A DNA stretch of 36,656 nt, taken from positions 1-36,656 of IMG/VR virus record IMGVR_UViG_3300021165_004379; one strand, given 5' to 3'. The position numbers and the translations under genes are program-made. The first letter of the stretch is position 1. Each line of letters opens with the position of its first letter. Below the pieces are notes generated by a model that searched no databases, was not told the origin of the DNA, and worked only from the letters and a program-made list of their open reading frames with translations. Of this stretch, positions 4,329-29,929 are shown piece after piece. This DNA comes from a virus.

Positions 4329-4336
4329 TATAAATA
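4329..4336 (+). promoter_or_regulatory. T4-type late promoter box TATAAATA
   Basis: Exact TATAAATA, the consensus of T4 late promoters (read by the gp55 sigma factor). The box ends 13 bases before the ATG of the leader-bearing ATPase at 4349. The same 13-base spacing recurs at 6356-6363. Confidence 0.6.
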
Positions 4337-4348: not shown

Positions 4349-5893
4349 ATGAAACATAAATTCAAATTTAAAGAATATCTGACTGAAGGGCTTACTTCTG
4401 AAACTGCATTAAAAGTAGCAGAAGTTATTTCCACATACATTGCCAAAAAAACTGGAGTAACCTTTTTCAAAATGCCAGGCATTGAGGAATATAAAAATGG
4501 AAGTGATTCCGGCTTTGGACTAAGAATGTTTTCCAAAAAAGCAAATCAAAGCATCCGTTTTAACTATAAAAGCTTTGGTAATATTGATTTGGTAAATCTT
4601 GCTTCTGTTCATTATTGGAACGGATCCGACCCATCACCGTATTTTATTGAATTTGATACTCGTGTTTCGGTTATTAAAGTGCTTCCTGTGCTTGTTGATA
4701 TGATTAATAACAAGGAAATCAAATTAGGCAAAATGATCTCTCCTCCTGATGATGTTCCTTTAAATGAATCCGATTTTACTCTTTATGAAAATGAAGCGAT
4801 GGATTCAAGTGTAATGTATGACGGTATTCTTTCTCTTATTGCGGCCAATGGCCCTAAAGGAACGTTGACGCAAAGTAAAATTTATTCTTACAACAAAATT
4901 GCAGGTGTTAAAGTGTTTGATGCTATAAGAGCCGATTTTCCAAAATTATTCTTTAAAGATGGTAACAAATATGAATGGCGCGGAACAAGCGCCGACCTTG
5001 AAAGCATTAAAAATGATAAGAGTAAAATCTTATCAGACCTTGGCGCCGTTGGAATTAAAGTAAGCCGTGGCAGCGCAAATGAAACATATAAGCAAAACGA
5101 TGCGCTTAAAGATCTTTCCAAAAACATTGAACGCTTATCGTTCGAAAAACAATTGGAAGATTTGGAAAATTTAATCCGAATGACCATAAGCGGTTCAAGC
5201 AACGGATTGTTTATTAGCGGTTCTGGTGGTGTTGGTAAAACATTTACAACCGAAAAGATACTAAAGAGTGCGGGATTACGTGACGGTTCAGGTTATTTCA
5301 AAAACACAGGTACTTCAAGCGCGGCAGGTTTATATTCATTGTTGTTCCGTTATAAAGATAAGATTGTACTATTTGACGATAGTGATAGTACACTTGGTGA
5401 TCAAGAAGCACGCAACATTGTTAAAGCGGCAACTGACACCAAGAAAATTCGTAAGCTTGTATGGAACAAAATGGGCAAAAATGTCGTTGATCCTGAGGAT
5501 ATGACAGATGAGGAAATATTAAACGACGGCTTAATTCCTCGCTATTTTGAATTTACTGGAAGAATTATTTTCATTTCCAACTTATCGCTTGATAAACTTG
5601 ATCCGGACGGTGCTCTTCGCACGCGCGCGTTTATTGTTAACATTGATCCTACCGATGATGAAATCTACAACTTTATGGAAAAGATTGTTGGTACCATGGA
5701 ATTGGAGGACGGTTTAAGTCTAGGCCTTGATTCACGCAAAACTGTTATTAAATTGCTCCGCGCAGGAAAATCACAACAAAAACCAAACTTACGAAAACTA
5801 TCTCGTGGTTTAAATATGGCAGCCGGCGCTGAAGCAGCGGGTGTGAATATTTCCAAAGCAGAATTGGCACGATTGATCGAAATGTACGCTTAA
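4349..5893 (+). CDS. AAA-type ATPase with N-terminal capsid-targeting-like leader
   Basis: 514 residues. The start KFKFKEYLTEG resembles the leader of T4 internal head proteins with an LxE cleavage site (LTE-G at residues 11-14). Residues 20-260 match nothing I know. The ATPase part has Walker A GSGGVGKT at 291-298, Walker B VLFDD around 340-344 and a sensor-1-like IIFISNLS near residue 410; the arginine-containing GALRTRAF follows near 425. Related ATPases occur in marine T4-like phages but their role is unknown to me. A late-type promoter directly upstream and the leader suggest a late, possibly packaged protein. DNA or protein remodelling after infection is one possibility and is inference only. 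Confidence 0.85.
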   Translation: MKHKFKFKEYLTEGLTSETALKVAEVISTYIAKKTGVTFFKMPGIEEYKNGSDSGFGLRMFSKKANQSIRFNYKSFGNIDLVNLASVHYWNGSDPSPYFIEFDTRVSVIKVLPVLVDMINNKEIKLGKMISPPDDVPLNESDFTLYENEAMDSSVMYDGILSLIAANGPKGTLTQSKIYSYNKIAGVKVFDAIRADFPKLFFKDGNKYEWRGTSADLESIKNDKSKILSDLGAVGIKVSRGSANETYKQNDALKDLSKNIERLSFEKQLEDLENLIRMTISGSSNGLFISGSGGVGKTFTTEKILKSAGLRDGSGYFKNTGTSSAAGLYSLLFRYKDKIVLFDDSDSTLGDQEARNIVKAATDTKKIRKLVWNKMGKNVVDPEDMTDEEILNDGLIPRYFEFTGRIIFISNLSLDKLDPDGALRTRAFIVNIDPTDDEIYNFMEKIVGTMELEDGLSLGLDSRKTVIKLLRAGKSQQKPNLRKLSRGLNMAAGAEAAGVNISKAELARLIEMYA

Positions 5894-5914
5894 CTAATTT
5901 TAAGGCTCTTTGTT

Positions 5915-6364
5915 TTGATACAAGTAAAAATTTACGGATGCTCGGATAAGGCTTTACAAAGTCTGATTCGCCTAGCATTCTATTTTTTTATTAAACAATT
6001 AATGCCTCGCAAAAGAAAATTGTGCGTTGCCATATTTATGAAGCATAAACTTCTTGCTGAAGAAGGCATATATGCATCATGCTATCAAATGGATTTAAAT
6101 AATGTAGGTTGCGACTACACAATACTCATGGATTCAAATCAAGATGAAAAAACAATTATAGGTTCGCTTGCGCATGAAATGGTACATGTTAAACAGTTTG
6201 CACGCAAAGAATTGTCAATATTAAACGGTGATTATTGCGCAAAGTGGAAAGGTGTTAAATTTGGTGATGACGTTGAATATGAAGATATGCCTTGGGAAAT
6301 TGAAGCCAACAATGCTGAATCACAATTAACACCAGCTTTTTTCAAAAATAGAATTTATAAATAG
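5915..6364 (+). CDS. SprT-like zinc metalloprotease
   Basis: 149 residues from a TTG start; AAGG at 5902-5905 sits at a good distance for ribosome binding, and the N-terminal stretch VKIYGCSDKALQSLI reads as real domain sequence. The alternative ATG at 6002 would remove it. The zinc site HEMVH (87-91) is followed by the acidic WEIEAN (127-132), which supplies a plausible third ligand, as in SprT/SPRTN domains. Cellular SPRTN cleaves DNA-protein crosslinks; the phage homologue's substrate is unknown. The gene fits between the AAA ATPase and a run of leader-bearing late proteins, but it lacks the leader itself. Confidence 0.8.
   Translation: MIQVKIYGCSDKALQSLIRLAFYFFIKQLMPRKRKLCVAIFMKHKLLAEEGIYASCYQMDLNNVGCDYTILMDSNQDEKTIIGSLAHEMVHVKQFARKELSILNGDYCAKWKGVKFGDDVEYEDMPWEIEANNAESQLTPAFFKNRIYK
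6356..6363 (+). promoter_or_regulatory. T4-type late promoter box TATAAATA
   Basis: Exact TATAAATA overlapping the last codons of the SprT-like gene, 13 bases before the ATG at 6376. It would start the transcript for the run of leader-bearing genes 6376-9555. Confidence 0.6.
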
Positions 6365-6375
6365 TATAATACAAA

Positions 6376-7698
6376 ATGAAATCATTTAAACAACATTTTT
6401 TAACGGAAGCCAATAATTTAGCGCCAGGTGAATTGTACAAATATCAAGTGCGCGTTGATAAATTTATTGAAAAATTTAAGAAAAAATCTCCTTTTGTACT
6501 TACAACTGGTGAAACTGTTGTATTGAAATATGATAAAGCAGTGGCCGATGCAATACTAAATAAAGTGGATCCTACGAAAATCGTTTTAAAAAGTGCTGAT
6601 GGCACAGCATCATACACACTTGGTAAATTTGCAAAAACTGCTGAATTTGGTGGTGCTGAAAAAGCCGCAGGTGCAGGAAGTGCAATTACAAAACTAACCG
6701 AAAGTGCGCAATGTGTATACGCTCAGGCATTATGGAACGGAACTAAGGATTATAATGATGATGATTTAAAGGAAGCATATGCCAGCGTTGATGTTAATGA
6801 ATCATTGGAAAATATTCTTAATCTTCCGGAAAGCTGGAAAAAATCTTGTATTATTGGTGCAGAACTATTGTATAAAAAATTTAGTAAAAAGAATTATACA
6901 TTTCATAGAGGTTCATCATGGGTGCAAAATCTAGAAAAGGTTTTCATGAAACTGAATAAAGTTGATAAATTTTTCAGTAACCTTAACAAATGGAGTCCTG
7001 CAGATATTTACATGCTTTCACCTGTAGGAGCTCAAATTAAAATTGATCATACCATCGATGACATTGTTGAATTGAATAAAATTCTATATGAAGCACTGGC
7101 CAGTGGAGATATTGTAGGTGTTTCATTGAAAAAAATGGCCAAAGGCGGAAAAATTGATTACTACAATTATGATGAAGAAAAGAAAGTAATTGAATTTGAT
7201 AAGTTTACCACTGGCGCGGACGGATTCTTTTCTTCAAAGGATATTTACATTTACTTTACAGTTAATGGTAAAGTTCAATTTAGAACATTTAGCGAACCTA
7301 CATCTTGGCAAGGTGAAATTAAAGGCAAAATCGCCAACGGAGGAAAACTTGGTTACGGTCCAATTCAAGGTGTTCTAAGACGTTTAGGTCTTAAACAGCT
7401 TACAGATGTTAAGGTTTTAAAATCGGCAATTGACAAAATGGATCCTATTATGCTGAAGAAATTTTATGAAAATTACAGCAGATATGCAAATGATAGTAAA
7501 AAATTATCATATGATGAATTTAAAGATCAAGTTGATGCTAATGGAAAACCATGGTTATTTAGCAAATATATCGGTTTGGAACTTATTGATATTGTTACCG
7601 ATGCAAATGAACAAGATGATTTTATTACCAGTAGCATTCAATATGCAAGCAGTCAATCCGAATTAAGCGCACCATTTATCAAAATTCACAGCGATTAA
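6376..7698 (+). CDS. Unknown protein with capsid-targeting-like leader (440 aa)
   Basis: Starts MKSFKQHFLTEA, closest of all in this window to the T4 internal-protein leader, with a predicted cleavage after LTE (residues 9-11). A second LTE-S site lies near residue 107. The body is mixed alpha/beta with no motif I recognise; FHRGSSWVQNLEKVF and WSPADIYML (about residues 178-215) are the most distinctive parts. A late-type promoter lies 13 bases upstream. The next gene starts three bases after its stop and carries a similar leader, so these are probably one late operon. The protein most likely enters the prohead and is trimmed by the maturation protease; its function is unknown. Confidence 0.8.
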   Translation: MKSFKQHFLTEANNLAPGELYKYQVRVDKFIEKFKKKSPFVLTTGETVVLKYDKAVADAILNKVDPTKIVLKSADGTASYTLGKFAKTAEFGGAEKAAGAGSAITKLTESAQCVYAQALWNGTKDYNDDDLKEAYASVDVNESLENILNLPESWKKSCIIGAELLYKKFSKKNYTFHRGSSWVQNLEKVFMKLNKVDKFFSNLNKWSPADIYMLSPVGAQIKIDHTIDDIVELNKILYEALASGDIVGVSLKKMAKGGKIDYYNYDEEKKVIEFDKFTTGADGFFSSKDIYIYFTVNGKVQFRTFSEPTSWQGEIKGKIANGGKLGYGPIQGVLRRLGLKQLTDVKVLKSAIDKMDPIMLKKFYENYSRYANDSKKLSYDEFKDQVDANGKPWLFSKYIGLELIDIVTDANEQDDFITSSIQYASSQSELSAPFIKIHSD

Positions 7699-7701
7699 AA
7701 T

Positions 7702-8307
7702 ATGATCTCATTTAAAACATACACAACAGAAGCTTCCAAGGTTGGCGATATTGTAAAGATCGCATCCAAGGATCTTGTGTATGAATATGAGAAAACATCC
7801 AACCGTGATTTTTTCAACGATGCATTTGATCCACAAGGTGGTGCTGGTGGATATGATCCGTTTGAATCAACAATTGCAGCAAAAGAAGCAAGTGCTTGGG
7901 TAAAGAAAAATGACAGTAATATTGGTACAACAATTGATTATTTTTTACCAAAAAGCCCACTGCTTCAGCAGTTAAAACTTGATGCACCGTCATTTTCAAA
8001 CAAATACAAATATGGAGTTGATGATAATTTTCCTGTTGTTGGTAAAGTGCGACCGACCGAACGCTATAAATTTATAGTTGATGAAGCAACATATAAAGCA
8101 CTACCAATTGATACCATTGCAACATCTCAATATGACTATTCATTTCACGCAGGTGAAGGAATTGTGACAAGTTGGATTATGGCAATTGGTAAAAATCAAG
8201 CAGAAGTTAAAAACAAATTAGATGCCGCTCTTACAAAAGTAAAAGTACAATACGTTGGCTCGGAAACAGAATTAAAATATGCACAAAAACGTGCAGTAGG
8301 AAGATAA
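7702..8307 (+). CDS. Unknown protein with capsid-targeting-like leader (201 aa)
   Basis: Starts MISFKTYTTEAS, a variant of the same leader seen in the neighbours, although the cleavage position reads TTE rather than LTE. The rest has no recognised motif; there is a glycine-rich stretch (DPQGGAGGYDPFES, about residues 43-56) and a basic C-terminus. It sits three bases after the previous gene and six bases before the next, both leader-bearing, so it is in the same late transcript. The short length and lack of enzyme motifs would suit a simple internal head protein like T4 IPI-IPIII, but that is an inference from context. Confidence 0.78.
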   Translation: MISFKTYTTEASKVGDIVKIASKDLVYEYEKTSNRDFFNDAFDPQGGAGGYDPFESTIAAKEASAWVKKNDSNIGTTIDYFLPKSPLLQQLKLDAPSFSNKYKYGVDDNFPVVGKVRPTERYKFIVDEATYKALPIDTIATSQYDYSFHAGEGIVTSWIMAIGKNQAEVKNKLDAALTKVKVQYVGSETELKYAQKRAVGR

Positions 8308-8313
8308 CAAAAT

Positions 8314-9555
8314 ATGATCTCATTTAAACAACATTACATAACGGAAGCCTCGGCCGAAGGTAAAAATCTACACATGGTTCACATCGAGGATCAGGTGTTA
8401 TATGGTGGAGTCCAAGGTGCGCGTGAAGCAATTACCGCGTTACGCAGTATGCGCGATATGTTGGCAGGAAACAGCGAACAATCATATGACATTGCCGCTA
8501 AATTTGATGGAGCACCGGCCATATTTGTCGGTACAGATCCAACGGATGGCAAATTCTTTGTTGCAAAAAAAGGAATCTTTAATAAAAACCCAAAGGTATA
8601 TAAGACCGAAGCTGATGTTCGTGCTGATACGTCTGGTGATCTGGCCGATAAACTTTCCATTGCATTGCAATACTTTCCAAAACTTGGTATCAAAGGTGTA
8701 CTTCAAGGCGACCTTGCATATACATCTCAAGATTTGAAGGATGAAGAATATGATGGTGTTGAATATCTTACGTTCCAACCAAATACAATTGTTTATGCCA
8801 TCCCAAAAGACAGTGCTTTGGCCAAAAAGATAAGAGCAAGTAAAATTGGAGTATTTTTCCATACACAATATAGCGGTGATACTTTTGAATCTATGAAAGC
8901 ATCATACGGATTTGATTCATCCGTTCTTAATAAAACAAGTGATGTATGGTACACAGATACTTACATTCGAGATCTTTCAGGAAAAGCAACATTAACAGCG
9001 GCCGAAACAAAAGAATTAACAGCTGTAATTTCCAAAGCAGGTAAAATTTTCCAAAGCATAAGCGGTTCAACGTTAAAAACAATTGAGGAAAACCCAACAC
9101 TTGCACAAACATTGGAAACATATAACAATACACTTGTGCGTAAAGGACAAACTATTGGTAATACAACGCAACATGTAAAAGATTTGTTGGTTTGGATTAA
9201 TGACAAAGCTCAAAAGGATATTGATTCCAAAAAGAGTGAAGCAGGAAAAACAAGTGCAACGACAAAGCGCGATGAATTTTTAAAATTCTTTTCACCAGAA
9301 AATAAGAAAAATTTGGCACTCATATATGATCTTCAAAATGCAATTGTTGAGGCAAAACTTATTATTATTGGTAAATTGGAAGATCTTAAAAAGATGGAAA
9401 CATTTGTGCGAACAGAGGATGGATTTAAAGTTACAGGTCAAGAAGGGTTTGCCATTAATGATAAAATTAAACAAAATGTTGTTAAACTTGTTGACCGTAT
9501 GAGTTTCTCTCGTAACAATTTTGATCCTTCTATAATCAAAGGTTGGGAGCGATAA
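8314..9555 (+). CDS. Ligase-like covalent nucleotidyltransferase with capsid-targeting-like leader
   Basis: 413 residues starting MISFKQHYITEAS (ITE-A cleavage site at 9-12). The body has a KxDG motif, KFDGAPAIF with K63 as candidate nucleotide-accepting lysine. This is followed by FVAKKGIF, the acidic GVLQGDLAYTS near residue 130, and YAIPKDS with a later KIGVFFHT. Order and spacing fit the nucleotidyltransferase fold of ATP-dependent RNA/DNA ligases and capping enzymes. A related family of unknown function is known in marine T4-like phages. The C-terminal half is helical and lacks the OB-fold motif I would expect of a DNA ligase. If packaged, it could act on nucleic acid straight after injection. 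Confidence 0.72.
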   Translation: MISFKQHYITEASAEGKNLHMVHIEDQVLYGGVQGAREAITALRSMRDMLAGNSEQSYDIAAKFDGAPAIFVGTDPTDGKFFVAKKGIFNKNPKVYKTEADVRADTSGDLADKLSIALQYFPKLGIKGVLQGDLAYTSQDLKDEEYDGVEYLTFQPNTIVYAIPKDSALAKKIRASKIGVFFHTQYSGDTFESMKASYGFDSSVLNKTSDVWYTDTYIRDLSGKATLTAAETKELTAVISKAGKIFQSISGSTLKTIEENPTLAQTLETYNNTLVRKGQTIGNTTQHVKDLLVWINDKAQKDIDSKKSEAGKTSATTKRDEFLKFFSPENKKNLALIYDLQNAIVEAKLIIIGKLEDLKKMETFVRTEDGFKVTGQEGFAINDKIKQNVVKLVDRMSFSRNNFDPSIIKGWER

Positions 9556-9558
9556 GTT

Positions 9559-10200
9559 ATGCCATATTGTAATCACAACATACCGACAATTACTTGTCTT
9601 ATTCGCAACGAATACTTATTCAACCACGAAAAAGGCCATGGTGAATATTCGCGGTGTGATGTACATAGTGTTGCATCACTCGAAAAAAGAACACCACTGT
9701 TTGAAGCATTTTTAACCAATGGTGTAAATTGGACACGTCGGCCACTGTCAGCATTTTGTTGGAAACCTTGCGATCCAATGCCGCTTGAGCATTGTGTATA
9801 TTGGGATTGTTTTAGTCCATACATTGATGTTCAAATACGAGCACGTATGAAAGGACTAAGAGCGCAGTGCATAACACCATCAAATACAAAAGAAGAGGGT
9901 GAATATATATTTACACTTGATTGGGCTTGGGAAAATAAAGCAATGCTTGATACAAATTTTGCCGAAACACCAGAACACAAATGTGCTCATTTATTTAAAA
10001 TGGACAATGGCAACTTTTATGCATATCCAAACAATCGAATTATTTGGCATGATAATGCTTGGACGGATAAACCTATTATTGGCAATCCAGGATATAAAAT
10101 AGATATGACAGTATACAGCGTGGAAAATAAAAGACCGTTGCTAACTGATTATAATTACATTACAAATTTTACCGAGGTCCCTAAAACCTGTAAATCATAA
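9559..10200 (+). CDS. Conserved-looking phage protein of unknown function (213 aa)
   Basis: No leader is visible: it starts MPYCNHNIPTITCLIRN. The sequence is rich in aromatic residues and in Cys and His (CNHN, SRCDVHS, FCWKPCDPMP, LEHCVYWDC, EHKCAHLF), so metal binding is possible, but the spacing fits no finger or enzyme I know. It begins three bases after the ligase-like gene and is followed by a late-type promoter at 10205, so it is the last gene of that late run. I do not recognise the family. Confidence 0.7.
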   Translation: MPYCNHNIPTITCLIRNEYLFNHEKGHGEYSRCDVHSVASLEKRTPLFEAFLTNGVNWTRRPLSAFCWKPCDPMPLEHCVYWDCFSPYIDVQIRARMKGLRAQCITPSNTKEEGEYIFTLDWAWENKAMLDTNFAETPEHKCAHLFKMDNGNFYAYPNNRIIWHDNAWTDKPIIGNPGYKIDMTVYSVENKRPLLTDYNYITNFTEVPKTCKS

Positions 10201-10204
10201 TCCT

Positions 10205-10212
10205 TATAAATA
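10205..10212 (+). promoter_or_regulatory. T4-type late promoter box TATAAATA
   Basis: Exact TATAAATA five bases after the preceding stop. It ends only six bases before the ATG at 10218, so a transcript starting at the usual distance would have almost no leader. Confidence 0.55.
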
Positions 10213-10217
10213 GAAGT

Positions 10218-10562
10218 ATGAAGCCCGAACCTTTGCGTCTAAGAGACATTATTGCCGTTGATCCGACCGACGGTTGGCTTCCCGATGATAATGTTGGTCT
10301 TATTCCATACCAATACTATAAACGCCATCATTCATATGATGAAGATGCAGAAATTGGTGCCGATGATATTGTGGAACCTGATGCGCGAGAAATTGCCATG
10401 GCTCGAAGTGCCGCTCGCGAAATACTTCGTTTGGAAATACTGGACGGCAGCCCAAAAGATGATTTGCCAATGGCTCGGCGCATTGAAATTGAAACAATTA
10501 TAGCAGGTCGTCAAAAGGAAGTTAACACCATTGCGCAAACCATTTTAACTCAAACAGCATAA
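10218..10562 (+). CDS. Small acidic hypothetical protein (114 aa)
   Basis: MKPEPLRLRDIIAVDPTDGWL with an acidic N-terminal half (DEDAEIGADDIVEPD) and a helical, charged second half (AREIAMARSAAREILRLEIL, then ARRIEIETIIAGRQKE). No motif is recognised. It lies between two late-type promoter boxes and just upstream of the nucleotidyltransferase at 10573. The acidic/helical composition would suit a scaffold or adaptor protein, but nothing in the sequence proves that. Confidence 0.68.
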   Translation: MKPEPLRLRDIIAVDPTDGWLPDDNVGLIPYQYYKRHHSYDEDAEIGADDIVEPDAREIAMARSAAREILRLEILDGSPKDDLPMARRIEIETIIAGRQKEVNTIAQTILTQTA

Positions 10563-10565
10563 ATA
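10558..10565 (+). promoter_or_regulatory. Late-promoter-like box CATAAATA
   Basis: One mismatch from TATAAATA, overlapping the stop codon of the previous gene and ending eight bases before the ATG at 10573. Eight bases is the commonest spacing of these boxes in this window. Confidence 0.4.
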
Positions 10566-10572
10566 ATCCTTA

Positions 10573-11409
10573 ATGAAAACATTTAGAAAATTTACCGAGG
10601 AACGAATAAAGGAAATTATTGTTACCTTTGGGCGCTTTAATCCACCTACAATCGGCCACGAGGAAAATATCGAAGCCATTGCAGATATGGCAAAAGGTAA
10701 AACTTTCAAAATATATGCTTCTCAAAGTGAAGATCCTAAGAAAAATCCTTTGCCGTATGAAAAGAAAATTGATTTTATGCGCAAAATGTTTCCTAAATAT
10801 GGACGCAACATTATATTTGACCGCGACATAAAAAACATTTTTGATATTGCAACCAATGCATATGATGAAGGATATACACGCTTTACTGTTGCCGTTGGAA
10901 GTGATCGTGTTAATGAATTTAAAGCATTATTACAAAAATATGATGGAGTAGAAGGCAAGCATGGATATTTTAAATTTCCCGATGGAATAAATGCTGTATC
11001 AACTGGCAGTCGCGACCCTGACATTGATGACCGAACAGGTGATGCAACATTTAAAGTAAGTGCATCCAAAATGCGCAGTGCGGCAGCCGACAATGATTTA
11101 CAAGCATTTTCCGCAGGCATACCAAAAACATTTGGAGCTGTTAAAGAATTATTTAATGCTGTGCGGCAAGGTATGGGACTAGAAGAAAGTTATAATTTCC
11201 GTACACATGTACAATTTGATTCCATAAGTGACTTACGCGAACAATATATTAAAGGATTAATTTTTAATATTGGAGACGTTGTGCAATGTAACAAATCGGA
11301 TGATCATCAATACACCATTCTTGAGCGCGGAGCAAATCATGTCCTTTGCCGCAATCTTAACACACTAAAAGAAAACAAATTTTTCATTAAAGACTTAATA
11401 ATCAAATAA
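10573..11409 (+). CDS. Cytidylyltransferase-like (HxGH superfamily) nucleotidyltransferase with leader-like start
   Basis: 278 residues. MKTFRKFTEER is a degenerate form of the leader seen at 6376. It is followed directly by the catalytic motif VTFGRFNPPTIGHE (residues 17-30), the (H/T)xGH signature of nicotinamide-mononucleotide and pantetheine adenylyltransferases. SASKMR near residue 155 corresponds to the second phosphate-binding motif (ISxTxxR). The C-terminal 70 residues after LEES form a separate small beta module (GDVVQCNKSDDHQYTILERG). The likely reaction is nucleotidyl transfer from NTP to a small phosphorylated substrate; NAD synthesis is plausible but the substrate cannot be read from sequence. 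A late-like box lies just upstream. Confidence 0.8.
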   Translation: MKTFRKFTEERIKEIIVTFGRFNPPTIGHEENIEAIADMAKGKTFKIYASQSEDPKKNPLPYEKKIDFMRKMFPKYGRNIIFDRDIKNIFDIATNAYDEGYTRFTVAVGSDRVNEFKALLQKYDGVEGKHGYFKFPDGINAVSTGSRDPDIDDRTGDATFKVSASKMRSAAADNDLQAFSAGIPKTFGAVKELFNAVRQGMGLEESYNFRTHVQFDSISDLREQYIKGLIFNIGDVVQCNKSDDHQYTILERGANHVLCRNLNTLKENKFFIKDLIIK

Positions 11410-11413
11410 AACT

Positions 11414-14272
11414 ATGAACAGCAATACAACAATCTTAAATCTTTTAAAAACAAATGGATTTACACAAGTTCCAAATAAAGATTGGCCTAATACGGTAGGT
11501 GATAAACTTAAAGATGCAGTTGATTCTGTATGGGGTTTACAAATGCGCGCAAATAAATGGGCTGATGTTTTTGTTGTTTCACTTGATGATGGTGATTGGA
11601 AAATTATCAATGACGATCAAATAAAAAATATTGGTGCCAATACAATTGAAAAAGAACTTACATCATTAATGAGTGAAGAATACGGTGCTGGGTTTGAAGG
11701 AACAAATGAGTTAAGAAATAAATACATAAAAGATACTCCAGGACAACGCATACAACAATTTAAAACCGAGATGAAACAATACGACTATCAAGAGTTTGAA
11801 GCTCAACACAAAAAGATGTATCCTTCGCATACGACGGATCAAATAAAAGCCGCATACAAAAAGTACAGCGAATATATTGAAGTAATTCAAAATATTGAAT
11901 TGGAAGAAGCTGAAGGTAAGACAGTAGAATCTGCATATAACGATTTGTCCAAAATGAGTGATTCTGCTTTACGTGGAATTTTACGAAGAATGGATATTGA
12001 TGATTACAACATTATTAAAGATCAAGGAAGGGAAGATATTATTGCAGAAATTCTCATGTCAAAATTTGGTGAAAAAGAAGCTTTAGAATTTTTAGAAAAT
12101 CCTGATAATTTCAAAATGGAAGAAGCTTTTGGTGAATCATGGGTTGTGTACAACAAGGACACCAAAGCAAAAATCAAACCTTTCAAAACAAGAAAAGGTG
12201 CGTATGAATATGCTGCAAAAAATGGAGGAGTTGTATACAGTGGTGAATATTACCATGACCACCAAGATGACATTAATTCCGGTAAACTTGTAAAAGAAGA
12301 ATCATTGGATGAAGCACAAAATTTAGTTTCAAAAGGAATCTACACATTTGACGGTAAAAAAATTGACGGTGCAAGATCAAGCAAATTGTTTCTTCAAGCA
12401 TTGGACAGCGATGGTTTTCTTCATAATCTTTCTTGGAAAGAATGGTCTGAATCCGATTTGGAAGATACATCGGCCGATAGCACTAAAAAGCAATTTGTTG
12501 ACCGTTTGGCAAAAGAAATTAAGGTGTTTAATAAAAGAATTGATCTTAATACATGGCTTAAAGGTGGAGATAGAAGCTTTACGGATACAGTAAATTATAT
12601 CTTTAAGCTTGATCCTAATATTAAATATGCTAAGGCTTCTGGATTAAAAGAAGAATCTTTACAAGAAGCTGTTACGCCAAAAGAAATAAGTCAAATAAAA
12701 AATGAATTTGATATGGAACTTATTCCACAAAGCAAGTGGGCTAAAAACTATCAAGATAATGTAAGAACGGTAAAACAGTTGTATGGAATTTCCCAAGGCA
12801 ACGGAGAATATGATGATGTTTATTTTGTCATTTATGATGATGAAAACAAACCATACGGTGTGGTTGACATTGAAGGTATCACAATGTATGCTAAATTTTC
12901 TGCTGCTAAAGCAGGATTGAAAATTTCATTAAATTCAATGAAAGAATCTTTACAAGAAAGTCGTGATTTTAAATCCTTTAGCAAAGAAAATTTAATCTTA
13001 TGGTTGCAGACAAACTGGACAAGCAAAAAGGTTTCTCCGCAATTTAGACAAGAACTTGATGCAGCAGTAAGAGAAGCACAAAGTCGCGGATTATACCGTC
13101 ATATAAAAATAGAGCCACAAAAGACCGATACTGTACAAGAAGCTGTTCCAGCAATTGACGTTGAAGAATTGCTTAAGCGGGCCGTAGATTTACGAAATGA
13201 TAATATGTCTCTTCGTAAAGGTCAGGCTATTATGATCGAGCTGCTGAAAATGGACCGAAAGGTATATGATTTGGCTGTACAAAAGGCCGATGCATTTTAT
13301 TTGGATTCGAAAATTCCAGCATTAATTAAATTTTTAGATCCTAATTACTACGAAGATGAAGGTGAATTTGCCGAATCATATAATGTTCAAGAAGCTGTTC
13401 TTAAAGTTGGTACATTTGTTACACTTAGCAATGGAAAAGTTGGTAAGGTTACCAATGTCAGTGGTGATAAAGAAATCGTAGATATCAAACTTAATGACGG
13501 ACGCCAAGTAAGCGTCACTATGGACAAAGTAATATCTTCGATGAGTGAAGCCATTAACATTAGAGACTATATGGCAACTTCCGAAAAATCACAATTTGGT
13601 GGTTACAGACCAAAAGTAGTTGGATCAGAAAGCGGCAAAGTGATGTATCTTGGCCAAGCATTGTATTACAGCCACGATGAAGCAAAAGATCATGCTGAAG
13701 ACTATTTAAAACAATACGCTCGTGGCATCAGTGAACCAAGAGTACCAAGCAAAGGTACTTATGATCTTAAAGAACAAAACAATGAATCGGTTGATTTCCG
13801 CACCATGAAAGATGCCAACCTTAAACAGTGGCTGAAAAGAAATGACACTGATGATAGTGTCTCTGCTGTCTTTGGAGCTCAGATTTTGGCTGCTAAGAAA
13901 GAAGCCAAACGTCGAGGTATCAGCGCACCGAGGCGTCTTAAAGAAGAAAAGGAATCATATGATTCCTGGATTATTAAACCGCGTGACGGCGGTGAATCTG
14001 TAAAAATTAAAGCACCTGATGAAAGCAGTGCTATTGAAATTGCATTAGGACGCAAGCCGTCGCAACATGAAATTGATTTTTTCAACTTTCATTACATTTT
14101 AATTCAAGAAAAAACAAATGTATCAACGTTGCGCAATATGAAAATTGTTGAACTTGCTACAAATTGCCACGATGAAAAGACATTAAAAGAATATGTTGAA
14201 CAACAATACGAATCAGGCTCTTCAGTCCTTGCCATAAAAGAATCATTCAAAAAATTCGTATCCAACAAATAA
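11414..14272 (+). CDS. Modular 952-residue protein with serial LxE-A sites, candidate internal-head polyprotein
   Basis: No enzyme motif is recognised. The sequence is a string of small modules separated by acidic linkers with the same cleavage-like motif: LEE-A (after residue 165), MEE-A (237), LDE-A (300), LQE-A (418), LQE-S (515), VQE-A (576), VQE-A (660), MSE-A (712) and LKE-Q (787). These match or closely resemble the (L/I)xE site of T4-type prohead protease. Two modules are clearly duplicated: DFKSFSKENLILWLQ (518 on) and DFRTMKDANLKQWLK (794 on), both ending in a K/R-rich AA-x-x-EA helix. An SH3/KOW-like module lies at about 661-705. It follows the nucleotidyltransferase by four bases. 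The interpretation as a packaged polyprotein is inference. Confidence 0.8.
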   Translation: MNSNTTILNLLKTNGFTQVPNKDWPNTVGDKLKDAVDSVWGLQMRANKWADVFVVSLDDGDWKIINDDQIKNIGANTIEKELTSLMSEEYGAGFEGTNELRNKYIKDTPGQRIQQFKTEMKQYDYQEFEAQHKKMYPSHTTDQIKAAYKKYSEYIEVIQNIELEEAEGKTVESAYNDLSKMSDSALRGILRRMDIDDYNIIKDQGREDIIAEILMSKFGEKEALEFLENPDNFKMEEAFGESWVVYNKDTKAKIKPFKTRKGAYEYAAKNGGVVYSGEYYHDHQDDINSGKLVKEESLDEAQNLVSKGIYTFDGKKIDGARSSKLFLQALDSDGFLHNLSWKEWSESDLEDTSADSTKKQFVDRLAKEIKVFNKRIDLNTWLKGGDRSFTDTVNYIFKLDPNIKYAKASGLKEESLQEAVTPKEISQIKNEFDMELIPQSKWAKNYQDNVRTVKQLYGISQGNGEYDDVYFVIYDDENKPYGVVDIEGITMYAKFSAAKAGLKISLNSMKESLQESRDFKSFSKENLILWLQTNWTSKKVSPQFRQELDAAVREAQSRGLYRHIKIEPQKTDTVQEAVPAIDVEELLKRAVDLRNDNMSLRKGQAIMIELLKMDRKVYDLAVQKADAFYLDSKIPALIKFLDPNYYEDEGEFAESYNVQEAVLKVGTFVTLSNGKVGKVTNVSGDKEIVDIKLNDGRQVSVTMDKVISSMSEAINIRDYMATSEKSQFGGYRPKVVGSESGKVMYLGQALYYSHDEAKDHAEDYLKQYARGISEPRVPSKGTYDLKEQNNESVDFRTMKDANLKQWLKRNDTDDSVSAVFGAQILAAKKEAKRRGISAPRRLKEEKESYDSWIIKPRDGGESVKIKAPDESSAIEIALGRKPSQHEIDFFNFHYILIQEKTNVSTLRNMKIVELATNCHDEKTLKEYVEQQYESGSSVLAIKESFKKFVSNK

Positions 14273-14273
14273 T

Positions 14274-14585
14274 ATGAAAACACTTGACACCATACGGTCT
14301 GGATCTCAACCTACAATATTTCCCAATAGAAAACAAACCGCGCTTTTGCGTCTTGAGTCCGAAGAACTTGATGTTATTGACGATACTCTTGGATTGTCAT
14401 GTATGTATCTTAGTGATGCCGTTGTAATGCTTGACGGTATGTACAATATGGTTTGCAGTTTGGAATCAACAGATGATGAAACAAGAGAAATCATTGCATC
14501 ATTGTATGATAACATTAAAGAAGTATCACTGCAAATGCAATCCAAATATTCAATTGATGCGCCTATAACATCGGAAGCATATTAA
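14274..14585 (+). CDS. Hypothetical protein (103 aa)
   Basis: Starts TAATATG overlapping closely with the stop of the 952-residue gene. The N-terminal 25 residues are polar and basic; the rest is predicted helical and acidic (LRLESEELDVIDDTLG, STDDETREIIASLYDN). No motif is recognised. The tight spacing (one base) suggests it is translated with the polyprotein candidate. It could be a helical adaptor or structural protein, but I cannot assign it. Confidence 0.68.
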   Translation: MKTLDTIRSGSQPTIFPNRKQTALLRLESEELDVIDDTLGLSCMYLSDAVVMLDGMYNMVCSLESTDDETREIIASLYDNIKEVSLQMQSKYSIDAPITSEAY

Positions 14586-14590
14586 TTGTT

Positions 14591-14908
14591 ATGATCAAAT
14601 CATTTTTAACATTCTTATCCGAAGCGGAATATCAAGGAAAAAAAGTTGAACTTGATAACCCTTTTAGATCAAGCGATGAAAAACATAAGTTTTATGTTTA
14701 TGTTAAAAATGAAAAAGGCAATGTAATTAAACTTGGCTTTGGTGATCCAAGCACGGACATTAAAAGAGATGATCCAAAGCGTCTAAAAAGTTTTAGAGCA
14801 AGACACCATTGCGATACAAATCCAGGACCAAAATGGAAAGCACGTTATTGGAGTTGCAAATTTTGGGAAAAAGGGAAAACTGTTACGGATCTATTGGCTG
14901 ATAAATAA
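14591..14908 (+). CDS. Conserved phage domain protein (ARYWSCK type) with capsid-targeting-like leader
   Basis: 105 residues. The first 12, MIKSFLTFLSEA, are another copy of the leader, with LSE-A as the predicted cleavage site. The remainder is one compact domain: KFYVYVKNEKGNVIKLGFGD, IKRDDPKRLKSFRARHHC and ARYWSCKFW. I recognise this pattern as a widespread small phage domain, often seen as a free protein or at the end of larger phage proteins; its role is unknown to me. The conserved Cys and His residues (RHHC, YWSC) might bind metal. That such a common domain carries the leader here supports the idea that the leader is a portable targeting tag. Confidence 0.78.
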   Translation: MIKSFLTFLSEAEYQGKKVELDNPFRSSDEKHKFYVYVKNEKGNVIKLGFGDPSTDIKRDDPKRLKSFRARHHCDTNPGPKWKARYWSCKFWEKGKTVTDLLADK

Positions 14909-14919
14909 CCTTATAGGTT

Positions 14920-15291
14920 ATGCAAAGCTCAAATTTAGAACTTAATGATAAAAATTTCAACATATATGCCGCAAGGCATTATAACAACCCAAACTGTTTG
15001 GATGTAGATGATTTTTATGAAGATCTTGATCATTTTAAGTATTTAAAAAAGCTCTTTAATAAGTATAGTAATGGTAAGACATTACAAGAAAGACTTATTT
15101 TAAATCACTTGATTATTTTACATAACGTGTTTTCAATTTCTGCGGCAACACAAATGTGTTTTTATAAGCTTAATGAAGAACATTGGCCCGCATTAAAAAC
15201 ATTTTTGCTATATTTAAACTATATTTACTCGGACGACTATATAAATATTCCGACCGATCTTTACATTACCAAAAAACTTCAACACCTTTAA
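14920..15291 (+). CDS. Hypothetical protein (123 aa)
   Basis: Acidic N-terminal part (DVDDFYEDLDHFKYLKKLF) followed by hydrophobic helical segments (LILNHLIILHNVFSISAAT, FLLYLNYIYSDDY). No clear transmembrane helix and no motif I know. A box GATAAATA (14900-14907), one mismatch from the late consensus, overlaps the preceding stop and lies 13 bases before the ATG. The next gene begins two bases after its stop. Probably a late gene of unknown role. Confidence 0.65.
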   Translation: MQSSNLELNDKNFNIYAARHYNNPNCLDVDDFYEDLDHFKYLKKLFNKYSNGKTLQERLILNHLIILHNVFSISAATQMCFYKLNEEHWPALKTFLLYLNYIYSDDYINIPTDLYITKKLQHL

Positions 15292-15293
15292 CC

Positions 15294-15881
15294 ATGAGCA
15301 TACTTACCAGAACGGCTGATACAATTTATGCAATTCGTTTTTTGCGTTTGTTAACTACTCGTTGGACCAGCACAGGTGCATATAAGTTGGGAATGATTGA
15401 CGCAAACGGGAAACACATTCGCAGTCCTCAAAACAGTGTTGAGCGCAGTAAATACAATATTTTTCACCGTTTGGTTTTTAACATTAAAAGATTGTTGAAT
15501 AAAATTCCTCTTGGTAAAACTACAATTGCTTCATACCTTACGGCATTGTATTTGATTAAGGAACATACAGGAATGTCGGATAAAAAGATTCTTCATGTTA
15601 TGGAAGAAATAACAGGAACTCCACTTGACGTTTCGATCTTAAATGAATCAACATGGAACCTTACAGAAAACAGCCAACTTAAAAGTGGCAATTATGTTTT
15701 AAATCGAGACGTTGCTTTGGTGTCCAGTGGTCAAATTTTGGCATTAAATCGTACAGCCGTAATTGTTGAAAATGATACAACGCCTGTAGGTCAAATTTTA
15801 GGTGTTAATGTTTACAAAGTACATCACTGTAAAACACAGCAACCGATATATATTACACAACAGGATATTACAAGACAATGA
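15294..15881 (+). CDS. Conserved T4-like phage protein of unknown function (195 aa)
   Basis: The start at 15294 (MSILTRTADTIYAIRFLRLL) avoids a 109-base overlap with the previous gene that the longest open frame would require. I recognise the pattern AIRFLRLLTTRW...AYKLGMID and VFNIKRLLNKIP from conserved proteins of marine T4-like phages near late genes, without a known function. The C-terminal 50 residues (VALVSSGQILALNRTAVIVE, VGQILGVNVYKVHH) look like a small beta domain. ATGA overlap with the next gene indicates translational coupling. Confidence 0.75.
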   Translation: MSILTRTADTIYAIRFLRLLTTRWTSTGAYKLGMIDANGKHIRSPQNSVERSKYNIFHRLVFNIKRLLNKIPLGKTTIASYLTALYLIKEHTGMSDKKILHVMEEITGTPLDVSILNESTWNLTENSQLKSGNYVLNRDVALVSSGQILALNRTAVIVENDTTPVGQILGVNVYKVHHCKTQQPIYITQQDITRQ

Positions 15882-27272: not shown

Positions 27273-27376
27273 AATTCATTGTTGAAGCATAAAAATTGTA
27301 TAAATAAAGATATATGAAACAAACATATTTTAACAATAAACAAGACAGTATTTTCCAAGCGGCATACAATGTGCTT
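27273..27376 (+). repeat. Direct repeat copy A: late promoter plus leader start
   Basis: This 104-base block (AATTCATTGTTGAAGCATAA..., late box, ATG and the first about 21 codons) is repeated at 27684-27786 with about seven differences and a one-base indel. The upstream piece TTGCAATTGCATAAATAATTCA (27258 on) recurs a third time at about 28165-28186. Confidence 0.85.
27299..27306 (+). promoter_or_regulatory. T4-type late promoter box TATAAATA
   Basis: Exact box, eight bases before the ATG at 27314. A second, imperfect box CATAAATA (27266-27273) lies 33 bases upstream, so tandem late promoters are possible. Confidence 0.6.
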
Positions 27377-27628
27377 ACCGAACAATCGGTTAGCACAAAT
27401 TGTAATTCTATTAATGAAGAAGAAGACAAAATGTCTGAGGATGAACATAAACAAATCGCACGCGATTTATACAAAAAATATGGATATGATGCTCATTCAA
27501 TCGGTGATTTTATGAAAGAACTTGTTATCCTTAAAGGAAAGTTTGAATCGGAAAAGAAACGCAAACCTATTACGAACACGGACAAATGGGATGAATACCC
27601 TGATCGCCGGCCGAGGGGGGATTCATGA
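27314..27628 (+). CDS. Late protein with second-type leader (104 aa)
   Basis: Starts MKQTYFNNKQDSIFQAAYNV followed by LTE, a leader shared with the genes at 27724, 34218, 34686 and 32488 (pattern: F/Y-x-N-N-x-x-D/H-x-[IL]-x-A-A-x-x-[IVF]-L...E). LTE-Q at residues 21-24 matches the LxE cleavage rule. The rest is charged, with CNSINEEEDKMSEDEHKQI and a helix ARDLYKKYGYDAHSI; the end is basic (YPDRRPRGDS). A late box precedes it. Probably a small capsid-internal protein; otherwise unknown. Confidence 0.72.
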   Translation: MKQTYFNNKQDSIFQAAYNVLTEQSVSTNCNSINEEEDKMSEDEHKQIARDLYKKYGYDAHSIGDFMKELVILKGKFESEKKRKPITNTDKWDEYPDRRPRGDS

Positions 27629-27683
27629 TGGTGATTACTATCAAGCTTAAGCAGAGAAAGAGAAACAAAGTAAAAATGAAATT

Positions 27684-27786
27684 AATTCATTGTTGAAGCA
27701 TAAAATTGCATAAATAAAGATATATGAAACAAACATATTACAACAATAAACAGGACAGTATTTTCCAAGCCGCATACAATGTTCTT
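27684..27786 (+). repeat. Direct repeat copy B: late promoter plus leader start
   Basis: Second copy of the block at 27273-27376, covering upstream sequence, the late-like box and the codons for the leader. After the leader the two proteins are unrelated, so duplication was followed by domain replacement. Confidence 0.85.
27709..27716 (+). promoter_or_regulatory. Late-promoter-like box CATAAATA
   Basis: One mismatch from the consensus, at the same place in repeat B as the exact box in repeat A, eight bases before the ATG at 27724. Confidence 0.45.
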
Positions 27787-28155
27787 TCCGAAAGTATGAA
27801 TGCTGAGAATTGGGGTAATACATATTGGGCTGATACTATTAATGGTAAAGAAATAAAAGTATCAATAAACGATTTAATGAATGTTACGAAGGGTGTACCT
27901 GTTATTGAGATGAGCACTAAAATATTAGAACCTTATGCTCTACATAAGAATAAAAAAGATGCTGAAACACTAGCTAATATTCAAAAGTCAGACTTACAAT
28001 ATCCTATTATTGTATTAAAGAAAAATAATAAATATCAAATTTTAGATGGGCATCATAGACTGCAAAAGGCTATTAACAATAATATTGAAAAGATAAAAAC
28101 GAAGCTAATTGATATTAATACATTACCAGACGACTGGCAAGAACTGTTTAGATAA
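27724..28155 (+). CDS. ParB-nuclease-like protein with second-type leader
   Basis: 143 residues. The first 23, MKQTYYNNKQDSIFQAAYNV then LSE, are nearly identical to the leader at 27314. The remainder is a small ParB/sulfiredoxin-type domain: YPIIVLKKNNKYQILDGHHR (the strand and DGHHRL box, about residues 97-118) followed by a helix QKAINNNIEKIK. In other proteins this fold hydrolyses CTP, cuts DNA or uses ATP. Domain plus leader suggests an enzyme aimed at the capsid. Codon use is more AT-rich and the sequence reads like a recently acquired domain. Confidence 0.8.
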   Translation: MKQTYYNNKQDSIFQAAYNVLSESMNAENWGNTYWADTINGKEIKVSINDLMNVTKGVPVIEMSTKILEPYALHKNKKDAETLANIQKSDLQYPIIVLKKNNKYQILDGHHRLQKAINNNIEKIKTKLIDINTLPDDWQELFR

Positions 28156-28204
28156 TTAATATGATTGCAATTGCATAAATAATTCAATTGATAAACAAAA
28201 ATTG

Positions 28205-28212
28205 TATAAATA
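28205..28212 (+). promoter_or_regulatory. T4-type late promoter box TATAAATA
   Basis: Exact box, five bases before the ATG at 28217, downstream of the third copy of the repeated intergenic sequence. Confidence 0.55.
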
Positions 28213-28216
28213 ACTT

Positions 28217-28351
28217 ATGAATATGAAACACGTCAAACAAAACACACGCAACGCATCGCGCTCTATTGAGTGTGATGGCACCGTGTGGTATCTTGGCGGT
28301 GAGAACATTATCGCTGCAGGATCACAAAGCTTTAATCCGACAACGCCATAA
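28217..28351 (+). CDS. Short late protein (44 aa)
   Basis: Reads MNMKHVKQNTRNASRSIECD then GTVWYLGGENIIAAGSQSFN and PTTP. It starts just after an exact late box and ends before a strong terminator, so the transcription unit frames this frame exactly. The sequence is a plausible small folded protein with a GTVWYLGGENI beta segment. No family is recognised. An alternative start is the ATG six bases on. Confidence 0.55.
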   Translation: MNMKHVKQNTRNASRSIECDGTVWYLGGENIIAAGSQSFNPTTP

Positions 28352-28378
28352 GGCAGAGAACAATCAAAAACCACTTTG

Positions 28379-28412
28379 AAAGACTCTCCGCCGCCAAGCA
28401 GAGAGTCTTTTT
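28379..28412 (+). terminator. Intrinsic terminator
   Basis: Perfect 10-base stem AAAGACTCTC/GAGAGTCTTT with a 12-base loop, running into TTTTTG. It closes the late gene block before the RNA island. Confidence 0.85.
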
Positions 28413-28457
28413 GTTATAGACTAAGGGAAAATAAAATGAAAAATATGTAAAAAGTTG

Positions 28458-28486
28458 TTTACAACTGCGGCTTTTTATGGTAGAAT
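28458..28486 (+). promoter_or_regulatory. Sigma-70-type promoter heading the RNA island
   Basis: TTTACA (28458-28463, within TTGTTTACA), 17 bases, extended -10 TGGTAGAAT (-10 hexamer 28481-28486). Its sequence is almost identical to the promoters at 33553 and 35530. Confidence 0.75.
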
Positions 28487-28541
28487 ATTCACATACGGCG
28501 GCAACAAAGAAGATTCAAAACCTTCTGCCAATGTAAAAAAG

Positions 28542-28667
28542 ATGTATTACATTCCACTGAAAATGTGGTATGATAACATTAATGAAACGCTGAATGAGTG
28601 CGTGAAACTCAAAACGACCGTGGTTGAACGGCATGGATCACAAGATGATGCGTTGACAATTGATTGA
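28542..28667 (+). CDS. Possible 41-residue protein downstream of the island promoter
   Basis: Open frame MYYIPLKMWYDNINETLNEC... ending ALTID. The frame extends upstream to 28455 but that part overlaps the promoter, so the ATG at 28542 is the first usable start. AAAAAG just before it is a weak ribosome site. No motif. It may only be leader sequence of the tRNA transcript. Confidence 0.3.
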   Translation: MYYIPLKMWYDNINETLNECVKLKTTVVERHGSQDDALTID

Positions 28668-29007
28668 AAAAAGAATGTGGTCATCAAGTCCGCAACAGAT
28701 TGGTAGATCCAATCAACTTGAAGAACCACGTTGTGTGTTCGAACGGTAACTCTACTTCATGAGTTTTAAAGATTATGTTGTAATCACCGACAAATTTTAA
28801 ATAGCACACTAATGATTAACCGATGCCTGATGTATAATATCCTCGGTTAATCATAAGAGGAATTGGTGTAAAATAACTTATGAGGTTTGGTTGCTCATCG
28901 GCGTTCTGAATGCTAAGGCATTCACCAATATGAATATGGAGTTGCAAATCCTATATATTGCGAAACCGATGATTTTGGTTCGAGTCCAAAACTCTGGAAT
29001 TTCTAAT
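28668..29007 (+). other. Structured non-coding stretch before the first tRNA
   Basis: No protein gene. It contains a perfect 12-base inverted repeat (28812-28823 with 28843-28854, 19-base loop, no U-tract). It also has a 68-base element closed by ATTGGTG/CACCAAT (28862-28929) with an inner ATGAG/CTCAT hairpin and GAATGC/GCATTC. A mini tRNA-like element (28938-28994) follows, with a good T-arm: TTTTGG, loop TTCGAGT, CCAAAA. None folds as a normal tRNA by eye. Confidence 0.5.
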
Positions 29008-29081
29008 AGCGGGTTAGAGTAGTGGTTACTCGGTAGTCTCATAAGCTACATAGGTCGGTTCGATTCCCACACCCGCAACCA
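29008..29081 (+). tRNA. tRNA-Met (CAT)
   Basis: Anticodon stem GTAGT/GCTAC with loop CTCATAA; D-arm GAGT/ACTC; T-loop TTCGATT with one mismatch in the stem; encoded CCA. Pair 1-72 is A-A, unusual. Not initiator-like (no G-C triplet in the anticodon stem). Lysidine-modified tRNA-Ile(CAT) is an alternative. Confidence 0.8.
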
Positions 29082-29146
29082 ATTTTATAAAATCTGGGAG
29101 TTTCCTCGACTCCAATGCAAGCTGAAAAGCATCGAGGTTAATTTTC

Positions 29147-29231
29147 GCGGACGGAAAGCTGGTGGCTCCAGCAGTAAGACTGTAAATCTTATCCTTAACA
29201 GGGAGTGGATCGAAACCACACGGCCGCACCA
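29147..29231 (+). tRNA. tRNA-Tyr (GTA)
   Basis: Acceptor GCGGACG/CGGCCGC (one mismatch), anticodon stem TAAGA/TCTTA with loop CTGTAAA, long variable arm as in bacterial tRNA-Tyr, encoded CCA. The stretch 29104-29138 just upstream can form a separate hairpin (CCTCG/CGAGG plus ATGC/GCAT). Confidence 0.88.
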
Positions 29232-29243
29232 ATTTCCAAAATT

Positions 29244-29375
29244 ACTGTTGAATGAGGGGAGAAAAAACCCTGCTGGGCGGTGAAAATCCGCTTTTACAAC
29301 TGCGTAACTCTACATAAGATGCAAATCTTGGAATGAGAAGCCCTAGTAGAAATCACTGAGGTCATATTCAACAGT
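29244..29375 (+). ncRNA. Unassigned structured RNA, 132 nt, closed by a perfect 10-bp helix
   Basis: ACTGTTGAAT (29244-29253) pairs perfectly with ATTCAACAGT (29366-29375). Inside are smaller helices, for example GCGG/CCGC around 29277-29294 and CCCTGCT/AGTAGGG-like pairing between 29268 and 29345. No tRNA arms, no open frame. It lies between tRNA-Tyr and tRNA-Glu. T4 also has two small stable RNAs of unknown function in its tRNA cluster; this may be an analogue. Confidence 0.5.
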
Positions 29376-29389
29376 TTATTTTTCAAAAT

Positions 29390-29464
29390 GCTGCCATCGT
29401 CTATCGGTTAGGACAAATGGTTTTCAACCATTAGAGCGGGGTTCAACTCCCCGTGGCAGTACCA
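29390..29464 (+). tRNA. tRNA-Glu (TTC)
   Basis: Acceptor GCTGCCA/TGGCAGT, anticodon stem AATGG/CCATT with loop TTTTCAA, T-arm GGGG-TTCAACT-CCCC, encoded CCA. Confidence 0.93.
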
Positions 29465-29470
29465 ATTTTT

Positions 29471-29544
29471 GCGGGATTAGTTTAATGGTAAAACCCCTTC
29501 CTTCCAAGTAGGTGACATCAGTTCGATTCTGATATTCCGCTCCA
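29471..29544 (+). tRNA. tRNA-Gly (TCC)
   Basis: Acceptor GCGGGAT/ATTCCGC, anticodon loop CTTCCAA (one mismatch in the stem), T-arm ATCAG-TTCGATT-CTGAT, encoded CCA. Confidence 0.9.
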
Positions 29545-29549
29545 ATTTT

Positions 29550-29790: not shown

Positions 29791-29847
29791 AGCCCTGAGC
29801 ATGGCACAAAAATAAAGGCTCGTCACTTTCGTATAATTTTTAACATC

Positions 29848-29923: not shown

Positions 29924-29929
29924 TTTTAT

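Follow-up and report, generated by a model that had tools for sequence, protein, structure and literature searches.

The 36,656-base record IMGVR_UViG_3300021165_004379 (the window, which is the whole stretch of DNA analysed) is a fragment of a T4-like phage in which six proteins encoded between positions 4349 and 14908 opened with a T4-type leader. It is highly probable that these N-terminal tags serve to target the capsid, as those of T4 internal proteins do, and that the tagged proteins are packaged, trimmed and presumably ejected. The phage probably carries along with its DNA a ready-made protein toolkit that includes several probable enzymes. This reading was based on the T4 pattern, the late promoters, the prohead protease and capsid motif of relatives, a conserved cut junction, leader swaps among homologues, and the virion proteomes of relatives. 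From this evidence we infer that the proteins of this phage bind the scaffold and are packaged, cleaved and ejected, and that they have a role in early infection. The original prediction had placed the tagged proteins in the interval 4349–14908, and the tags were there; the family was wider, with a second leader class at 27314–35162.

The class-1 leader and its resemblance to T4

The leader of the six proteins (class 1, Table 1) was a tag of 10–14 residues with aromatic residues at positions 4 and 7 and [LIT]xE at the cut site. A regular expression derived from the data matched the N-terminus of 6 of the 55 open reading frames (ORFs) in the window, compared with 0.22 expected from internal positions of the same proteins. 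This confirmed, at the coordinates first given, the claim that neighbouring and otherwise unrelated proteins share a tag. The tag at 4349 had been quoted without its first residues and in full reads MKHKFKFKEYLTE/G. The same expression matched 5 of 192 ORFs in phage C48C1 (1.0 expected) and 3 of 205 in Methylophilales phage Melnitz (0.7 expected), mostly in the matching gene neighbourhood.

Because the first expression was derived from the data, a second pattern, M..[FY]..[FY][LIVMT].E, was also applied, which had been fixed beforehand from T4 genetics (residues 4, 7, 8 and 10). Targeting by the IPIII leader depends on residues 4 and 7, and its processing on residues 8 and 10 (PMC9026906). In T4, the strict form recovered ipII, ipIII and also gp61.1, with 0.09 matches expected. 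The T4 gp61.1 (NC_000866, 18966–19130), a hypothetical protein, starts with MKTFKEFIKED, which fits the strict form of the capsid-targeting pattern. In the window, the strict form gave two matches (0.01 expected) and the loosely spaced form gave seven (0.31 expected), one of which, on the minus strand at 25004, was rejected as a false positive, leaving six. The proteins at 7702 and 10573 kept the strict T4 register, and those at 4349, 6376, 8314 and 14591 showed a spacing of one additional residue or an N-terminal extension; the tags of the latter four ended with the gp21 consensus (L/I)xE. The assignment of the tag as a T4-type leader was thus upheld.

A comparison of N-termini across related phages had been proposed as a check. 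Among 80 related IMG/VR loci, the leader was found on 220 of 1,388 ORFs, compared with 5.7 expected, and was distributed over about 20 cargo families. The residue ahead of x-E was Leu or Ile in 191 of these 220 tags, and Ala was the commonest residue just after the cut. Chance resemblance was ruled out by the enrichment in the window and in the 80 loci.

A second leader class

Five further proteins of the window (27314, 27724, 32488, 34218 and 34686) shared another start, approximately [DN]xL..AAxxIL followed by [LIM]xE (class 2, Table 1). With a threshold of 10 bits, a class-2 profile detected 24 N-termini, among them many seeds and some new sequences, and 0 internal control segments. Homologues of the 7702 protein in four related loci (L046, L066, L072 and L073) carried a class-2 start in place of class 1. 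The leader of a DUF5824 protein switched class between G001, the closest long relative, and L073; elsewhere this protein was fused to a nucleotidyltransferase. The best evidence that both tags lead to the same place was that one cargo can bear either of them. Judged from these sequences, the class-2 tag very likely targets the capsid and does the same job as class 1.

The leader as a separable cassette

The mature parts of the six class-1 proteins had no Pfam or PHROG family in common; the one exception is phrog_455 of other phages, in which DUF6267 is fused to the nucleotidyltransferase. At the 80 loci, a leader-like N-terminus was present in 18 of 21 homologues of the AAA protein, 58 of 81 of DUF6267, 46 of 68 of the nucleotidyltransferase, 23 of 39 of the 6376 protein and 21 of 44 of the 14591 protein, counts that include some fragment sequences. 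At these loci, no leader was present on any homologue of the flanking DnaB/gp41, p5915, p9559, p14920 and p15183. The tag is not inherent to the AAA family, because its T4 relative, nrdC.10, is leaderless.

The junction between leader and mature part was conserved. In the 14591 family (25 unique sequences), the pro-segment varied from about 11 to 87 residues, and a [LIVMT]xE motif was read from the table within 0–1 residue of the conserved (A/S/T)EYxG(K/R) start in 25/25; by strict count, the Glu was right at the junction in 17/25 and off by one in the remainder. In leaderless relatives of the 6376 protein (L051 and L052), the Met was located directly at the mature start. The AlphaFold models of the DUF6267 and 6376 proteins had a mean predicted local distance difference test (pLDDT) of 86.7 and 85.8, with disordered residues 1–19 and 1–12, respectively, at pLDDT below 50, and in both models the folded domain began past the cut site.

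The tags resemble one another, as would be expected if they were inherited N-termini of one paralogous family and not a transferable signal. However, the mature parts came from unrelated families, and the same mature part was found with class 1, with class 2, with no tag, or fused to a nucleotidyltransferase. The leader swaps contradict such an origin, which is extremely improbable, and common ancestry of the whole proteins was excluded on the same grounds.

Late promoters of the leader genes

By sequence, the exact T4 late promoter TATAAATA occurred 12 times in the window, and 9 copies were located 4–12 nucleotides (nt) ahead of an ORF start, when 0.13 such placements were expected and 9 were reached in 0 of 20,000 circular shifts. 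It served eight plus-strand genes, six of which were leader-bearing (4349, 6376, 27314, 32488, 34218 and 34686), the other two being the 10218 ORF and a probable homing endonuclease gene at 31383. Leader genes of the window had a late promoter more often than other genes (Fisher p = 0.001; 5e-5 if the variant CATAAATA was allowed). In G001, a regular-expression-based Fisher test of late promoters against leaders was not significant (p = 0.13), probably owing to leader genes internal to operons and to false positives of the loose expression; the conclusion on promoters is based on their positions in the window.

Gaps of 3 and 6 bases preceded the genes at 7702 and 8314, respectively, both downstream of 6376, and the promoter at 6356 probably also drives these two genes by co-transcription. 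Late promoters seem to drive the leader genes that lie among the early replication genes (gp41, nrd). The distance from promoter to start was 4–12 nt (mostly 5–8) in the window, G001 and G003, and mostly 15–30 nt in T4, C48C1 and Melnitz; the short distance suggests late mRNAs that are leaderless or nearly so.

The position of the tagged genes between gp41 and nrd would fit a localisation or partner-binding signal for the replication complex or the membrane, with a convergent likeness to T4. Such a signal is very improbable in view of the late promoters, the [LI]xE ends matching the capsid motif, the strict T4 register, and the homologues found by virion mass spectrometry (MS).

Protease, capsid motif and virions of relatives

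A gp21-type protease (Peptidase_S77) was encoded in G001 (2e-44), C48C1, Melnitz, Stenotrophomonas phage DLP_6 and cyanophage S-SCSM1. In its capsid protein, G001 had ..SAYLAE/GNS and C48C1 had ..GGFLTE/TGP, in both cases at about residue 55 and with a motif equal to the tag end. Together with the T4 pattern, the late promoters, the conserved cut junction, the leader swapping and the published virion proteomes of relatives, these findings supported the predicted capsid loading and trimming by a prohead protease.

According to virion proteomics of S-SCSM1, the products of a syntenic block, ORF89–93, are virion proteins; among them are the homologue of the 6376 protein (SSCSM1_90, annotated as a virion protein) and an NMNAT-like enzyme, which began with MKSFLQFLKEA. 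The 69-residue virion protein SSCSM1_93 (L004:23878-24087) has a C-terminal RTFKEFLEYIE that resembles the tag. A cytidyltransferase was found by virion MS in S-SZBM1, whose adjoining DUF6267 protein was not in the published list, and a cytidyltransferase was detected in virions of S-CREM2. The S-SZBM1 enzyme was tagged (MRFRQFIIE/A) and its DUF6267 neighbour was leaderless; the S-CREM2 enzyme carried MKNFSSFLTE/A. The NMNAT-like cytidyltransferases of the three cyanophages were homologous to the window enzyme, in a syntenic or similar position, and had a leader in all three. The available text of the cyanophage virion papers names no targeting signal and gives no N-termini of the virion proteins, and one review (PMC9026906) was all that a literature search on cyanophage capsid-targeting sequences returned.

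The tag could also dock proteins to the scaffold as assembly factors or core filler that are degraded or retained and not delivered. In T4, head assembly is influenced by IPIII, and gp22 and the internal proteins co-purify (PMC9026906); the tag alone cannot separate retention from delivery. However, catalytic motifs were conserved in the cargo (KxDG, TxGH and Walker A), homologues were present in mature virions, and the changeable, enzyme-rich repertoire (zeta-toxin-like kinase, lysozyme and ParB-like proteins) suits delivered effectors better. A purely structural role is therefore unlikely.

Several points weighed against packaging and delivery. The window, 36.7 kb long, is a fragment that lacks head genes, and the MS data came from virions of relatives, not of this phage. 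The cyanophage authors discuss packaging but were unable to exclude carry-over of enzymes into CsCl-purified virions (PMC10665884). S-SCSM1 ORF30 was a counter-example, with a clear tag and no virion-protein annotation, and several S-SCSM1 virion proteins of the syntenic block carried no such tag. The capsid cut sites were predicted from motif and position and were not measured N-termini. Position P3 was Thr, not Leu or Ile, in the tags at 7702 and 10573. Finally, the tag was absent in 6 of 22 full-length homologues of the 6376 protein and in some DUF6267 homologues. As these homologues lacked it, the tag is an optional cassette, although leaderless homologues had been named beforehand as evidence that would refute packaging.

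For the packaging of tagged cargo, the following course is proposed. Late in infection, the tagged proteins would be produced alongside the head proteins and, by binding of the tag to the scaffold core, would be taken up into the prohead. Cleavage after [LIT]xE by the gp21-type protease of the phage would leave the mature proteins in the head, from which they would presumably be ejected with the DNA. The class-2 tag, a short helical segment, very likely works in the same way, and one protein, of 952 residues, may be a string of domains that this protease separates. As a speculation, the cargo may act ahead of phage gene expression, for example on NAD or nucleic-acid ends in host defence.

The cargo proteins

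The original prediction named an AAA ATPase, a ligase-like protein and an HxGH nucleotidyltransferase. The nucleotidyltransferase motif was TxGH, and the ligase-like protein had no significant structure match. The AAA-like protein contained Walker A (GSGGVGKT) at 291 and a Walker B candidate at 339. In DUF6267, residues K63, D65 and G66 (KxDG, motif I), E377, G378 and K391 were invariant across 50 sequences, and E377–G378 and K391 are read as putative motifs IV and V, respectively; KxDG, EG and Lys residues of this kind are typical of covalent nucleotidyltransferases. About 20 of the top 50 Foldseek matches were ligases or capping enzymes, with a best E value of at least 0.33. Neither a significant fold match nor a sequence match to a solved ligase or capping enzyme was obtained, and DUF6267 is designated a covalent nucleotidyltransferase in a works-like sense only. 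The family was unmentioned in the literature searched. In the 10573 protein, PF01467 was the only family, at superfamily level, above cut-off; the NadR-type NMNAT model TIGR01526 scored 20.3 bits and did not reach its cut-off of 341. An assignment of the 6376 protein as a PD-(D/E)xK nuclease (DxxY..SLK pattern) was unsupported, with no PDB fold match.

A small leaderless metalloprotease-like protein with an HExxH motif (HEMVH) was located inside the module at 5915–6364. Among relatives, a class-1 leader was found on a zeta-toxin-like kinase (L114:5017-5913, six loci) and a class-2 leader on a phage lysozyme (L063:6955-7788), and their cargo list also included small proteins.

The 952-residue protein contained 11 internal [LIVM]xE[AS] sites, compared with 2.5 in shuffled sequences, and may be cut into pieces by the prohead protease; because its linkers are acidic, the sites are only suggestive. 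A common segment (..TSEKSQFGGYRP...AKDHAEDYLKQ..) was present in this protein and in an 818-residue class-2-leader protein of G001 (12920–15376). It stood in different contexts with SLxEA/LEEA sites on its flanks, and possibly represents shuffled polyprotein pieces.

Table 1. Leader proteins, late promoters and associated features of the window (a slash marks the predicted cut site)
Feature	Position	Strand	Description
Late promoter TATAAATA	4329–4336	+	12 nt 5' of ATG 4349
AAA/P-loop ATPase-like protein, 514 residues	4349–5893	+	phrog_1250, 6e-29
Class-1 leader of AAA-like protein	4349–4387	+	MKHKFKFKEYLTE/G
Late promoter TATAAATA	6356–6363	+	12 nt 5' of ATG 6376
phrog_1462 protein, 440 residues	6376–7698	+	Leader nt 6376–6408, MKSFKQHFLTE/A
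201-residue protein, no family named	7702–8307	+	Leader nt 7702–7731, MISFKTYTTE/A
DUF6267, covalent-nucleotidyltransferase (ligase)-like	8314–9555	+	PF19782, 1.4e-99; leader nt 8314–8346, MISFKQHYITE/A
Late promoter TATAAATA	10205–10212	+	Ahead of 10218
Leaderless ORF	starts 10218	+	Directly 5' of nucleotidyltransferase; own late promoter
Late-promoter variant CATAAATA	10558–10565	+	7 nt 5' of ATG 10573
NMNAT/cytidyltransferase-like nucleotidyltransferase	10573–11409	+	phrog_395, 8.6e-64; leader nt 10573–10602, MKTFRKFTEE/R
952-residue multi-segment protein	11414–14272	+	Candidate protease-cut polyprotein cargo
105-residue cargo	14591–14908	+	Leader nt 14591–14623, MIKSFLTFLSE/A, stops exactly at conserved AEYxGKKV start
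Late promoter TATAAATA	27299–27306	+	Ahead of 27314
Class-2 leader protein	27314–27628	+	Leader nt 27314–27382, MKQTYFNNKQDSIFQAAYNVLTE/Q
Late-promoter variant CATAAATA	27709–27716	+	Ahead of 27724
ParB-like domain protein	27724–28155	+	Class-2 leader nt 27724–27792, MKQTYYNNKQDSIFQAAYNVLSE/S
Late promoter TATAAATA	32472–32479	+	Ahead of 32488
Class-2 leader protein	32488–32946	+	Leader nt 32488–32559, MNNIKTNDETYIAAKAILEGQMLE/A
Late promoter TATAAATA	34203–34210	+	Ahead of 34218
Class-2 leader protein	34218–34514	+	Leader nt 34218–34304, MNENFTNNKHNHLVAAAAQFLNGRSQLNE/D
Late promoter TATAAATA	34671–34678	+	Ahead of 34686
Class-2 leader protein	34686–35162	+	Leader nt 34686–34769, MYKHFTNSNNDPLVAAAASILNVKSLNE/K

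The window and its relatives

The T4-like window carried a DnaB/gp41 helicase gene at 2923, 19 tRNA genes and one transfer-messenger RNA (tmRNA). The small and large subunits of a putative ribonucleotide reductase (nrd), at 16326 and 17345, respectively, are read from translation and synteny. The phage-encoded tmRNA (30918–31248) lay among the tRNA genes and specified the tag AQQQKALIT. The closest named relatives through DUF6267 were C48C1, Melnitz and DLP_6, followed by Kyanoviridae cyanophages; the DUF6267 of G001 (173.8 kb) was 80% identical to that of the window. Bases 2–2566 were 94.9% identical to a contig of a Chitinophagaceae metagenome-assembled genome, and in phage relatives that place is occupied by phage genes. 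This bacterial left end (1–2600) held pntB and a truncated M28 peptidase, and the match stopped at 2566. The left end is likely an assembly chimera, and the tagged-protein block was well within the phage part, away from it.

Comparison with known systems

The class-1 tags were similar to those of T4 IPI, IPII and IPIII in length, in register (aromatic residues 4 and 7 and a cut following xxE at 10–11) and in late promoters, and the protease family (here from relatives) and the small N-terminal cassette on unrelated mature proteins were also alike. In contrast to the T4 internal proteins, the window cargo included larger probable enzymes, six proteins being in one module between early genes; several tags were one residue longer in spacing, P3 was Thr in two, and a second tag type was present. 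The claim that such cargo goes well beyond Alt was overstated, as T4 Alt is itself a large ADP-ribosyltransferase that is packaged in the head, processed by gp21 and ejected (PMC9026906). The enzyme classes of the window are unrelated to Alt, and the propeptide differs. In phiKZ, SPN3US and 201phi2-1, ejection proteins have propeptides that are cut after xxE, and a gp21-like protease trims many head proteins, including enzymes, behind a Glu (PMC9026906); these phages belong to a different group. Phage polyvalent proteins are injected, are long and have multiple domains, including ParB-like, lysozyme, kinase and nucleotidyltransferase domains (PMC5512222). They loosely resemble the 952-residue protein and the cargo list, whereas the cargo here consisted mostly of separate tagged proteins. 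Polyvalent proteins combine several recognised effector domains in one polypeptide, and the 952-residue ORF had no Pfam domain over cut-off.

Implications

The idea that the tag may enable T4-like phages to package a variety of proteins had been put forward in a 2022 review (PMC9026906). The present findings add enzyme cargo to what was known of the T4 internal-protein system and introduce no new principle. The balance tips slightly towards a modular cargo system in T4-like phages outside the T-evens, with two interchangeable tags, one of the T4 type and one of a new helical type, an enzyme kit of about 20 families, and long polyproteins that would be split by the prohead protease into separate effectors within the head. 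With the tags, head-borne phage proteins could be predicted from sequence alone, and foreign proteins could possibly be loaded into phage heads. Furthermore, capsid tags would explain the NMNAT-like enzymes in cyanophage virions, and DUF6267, phrog_1462 and DUF5824 become candidate effectors of early infection.

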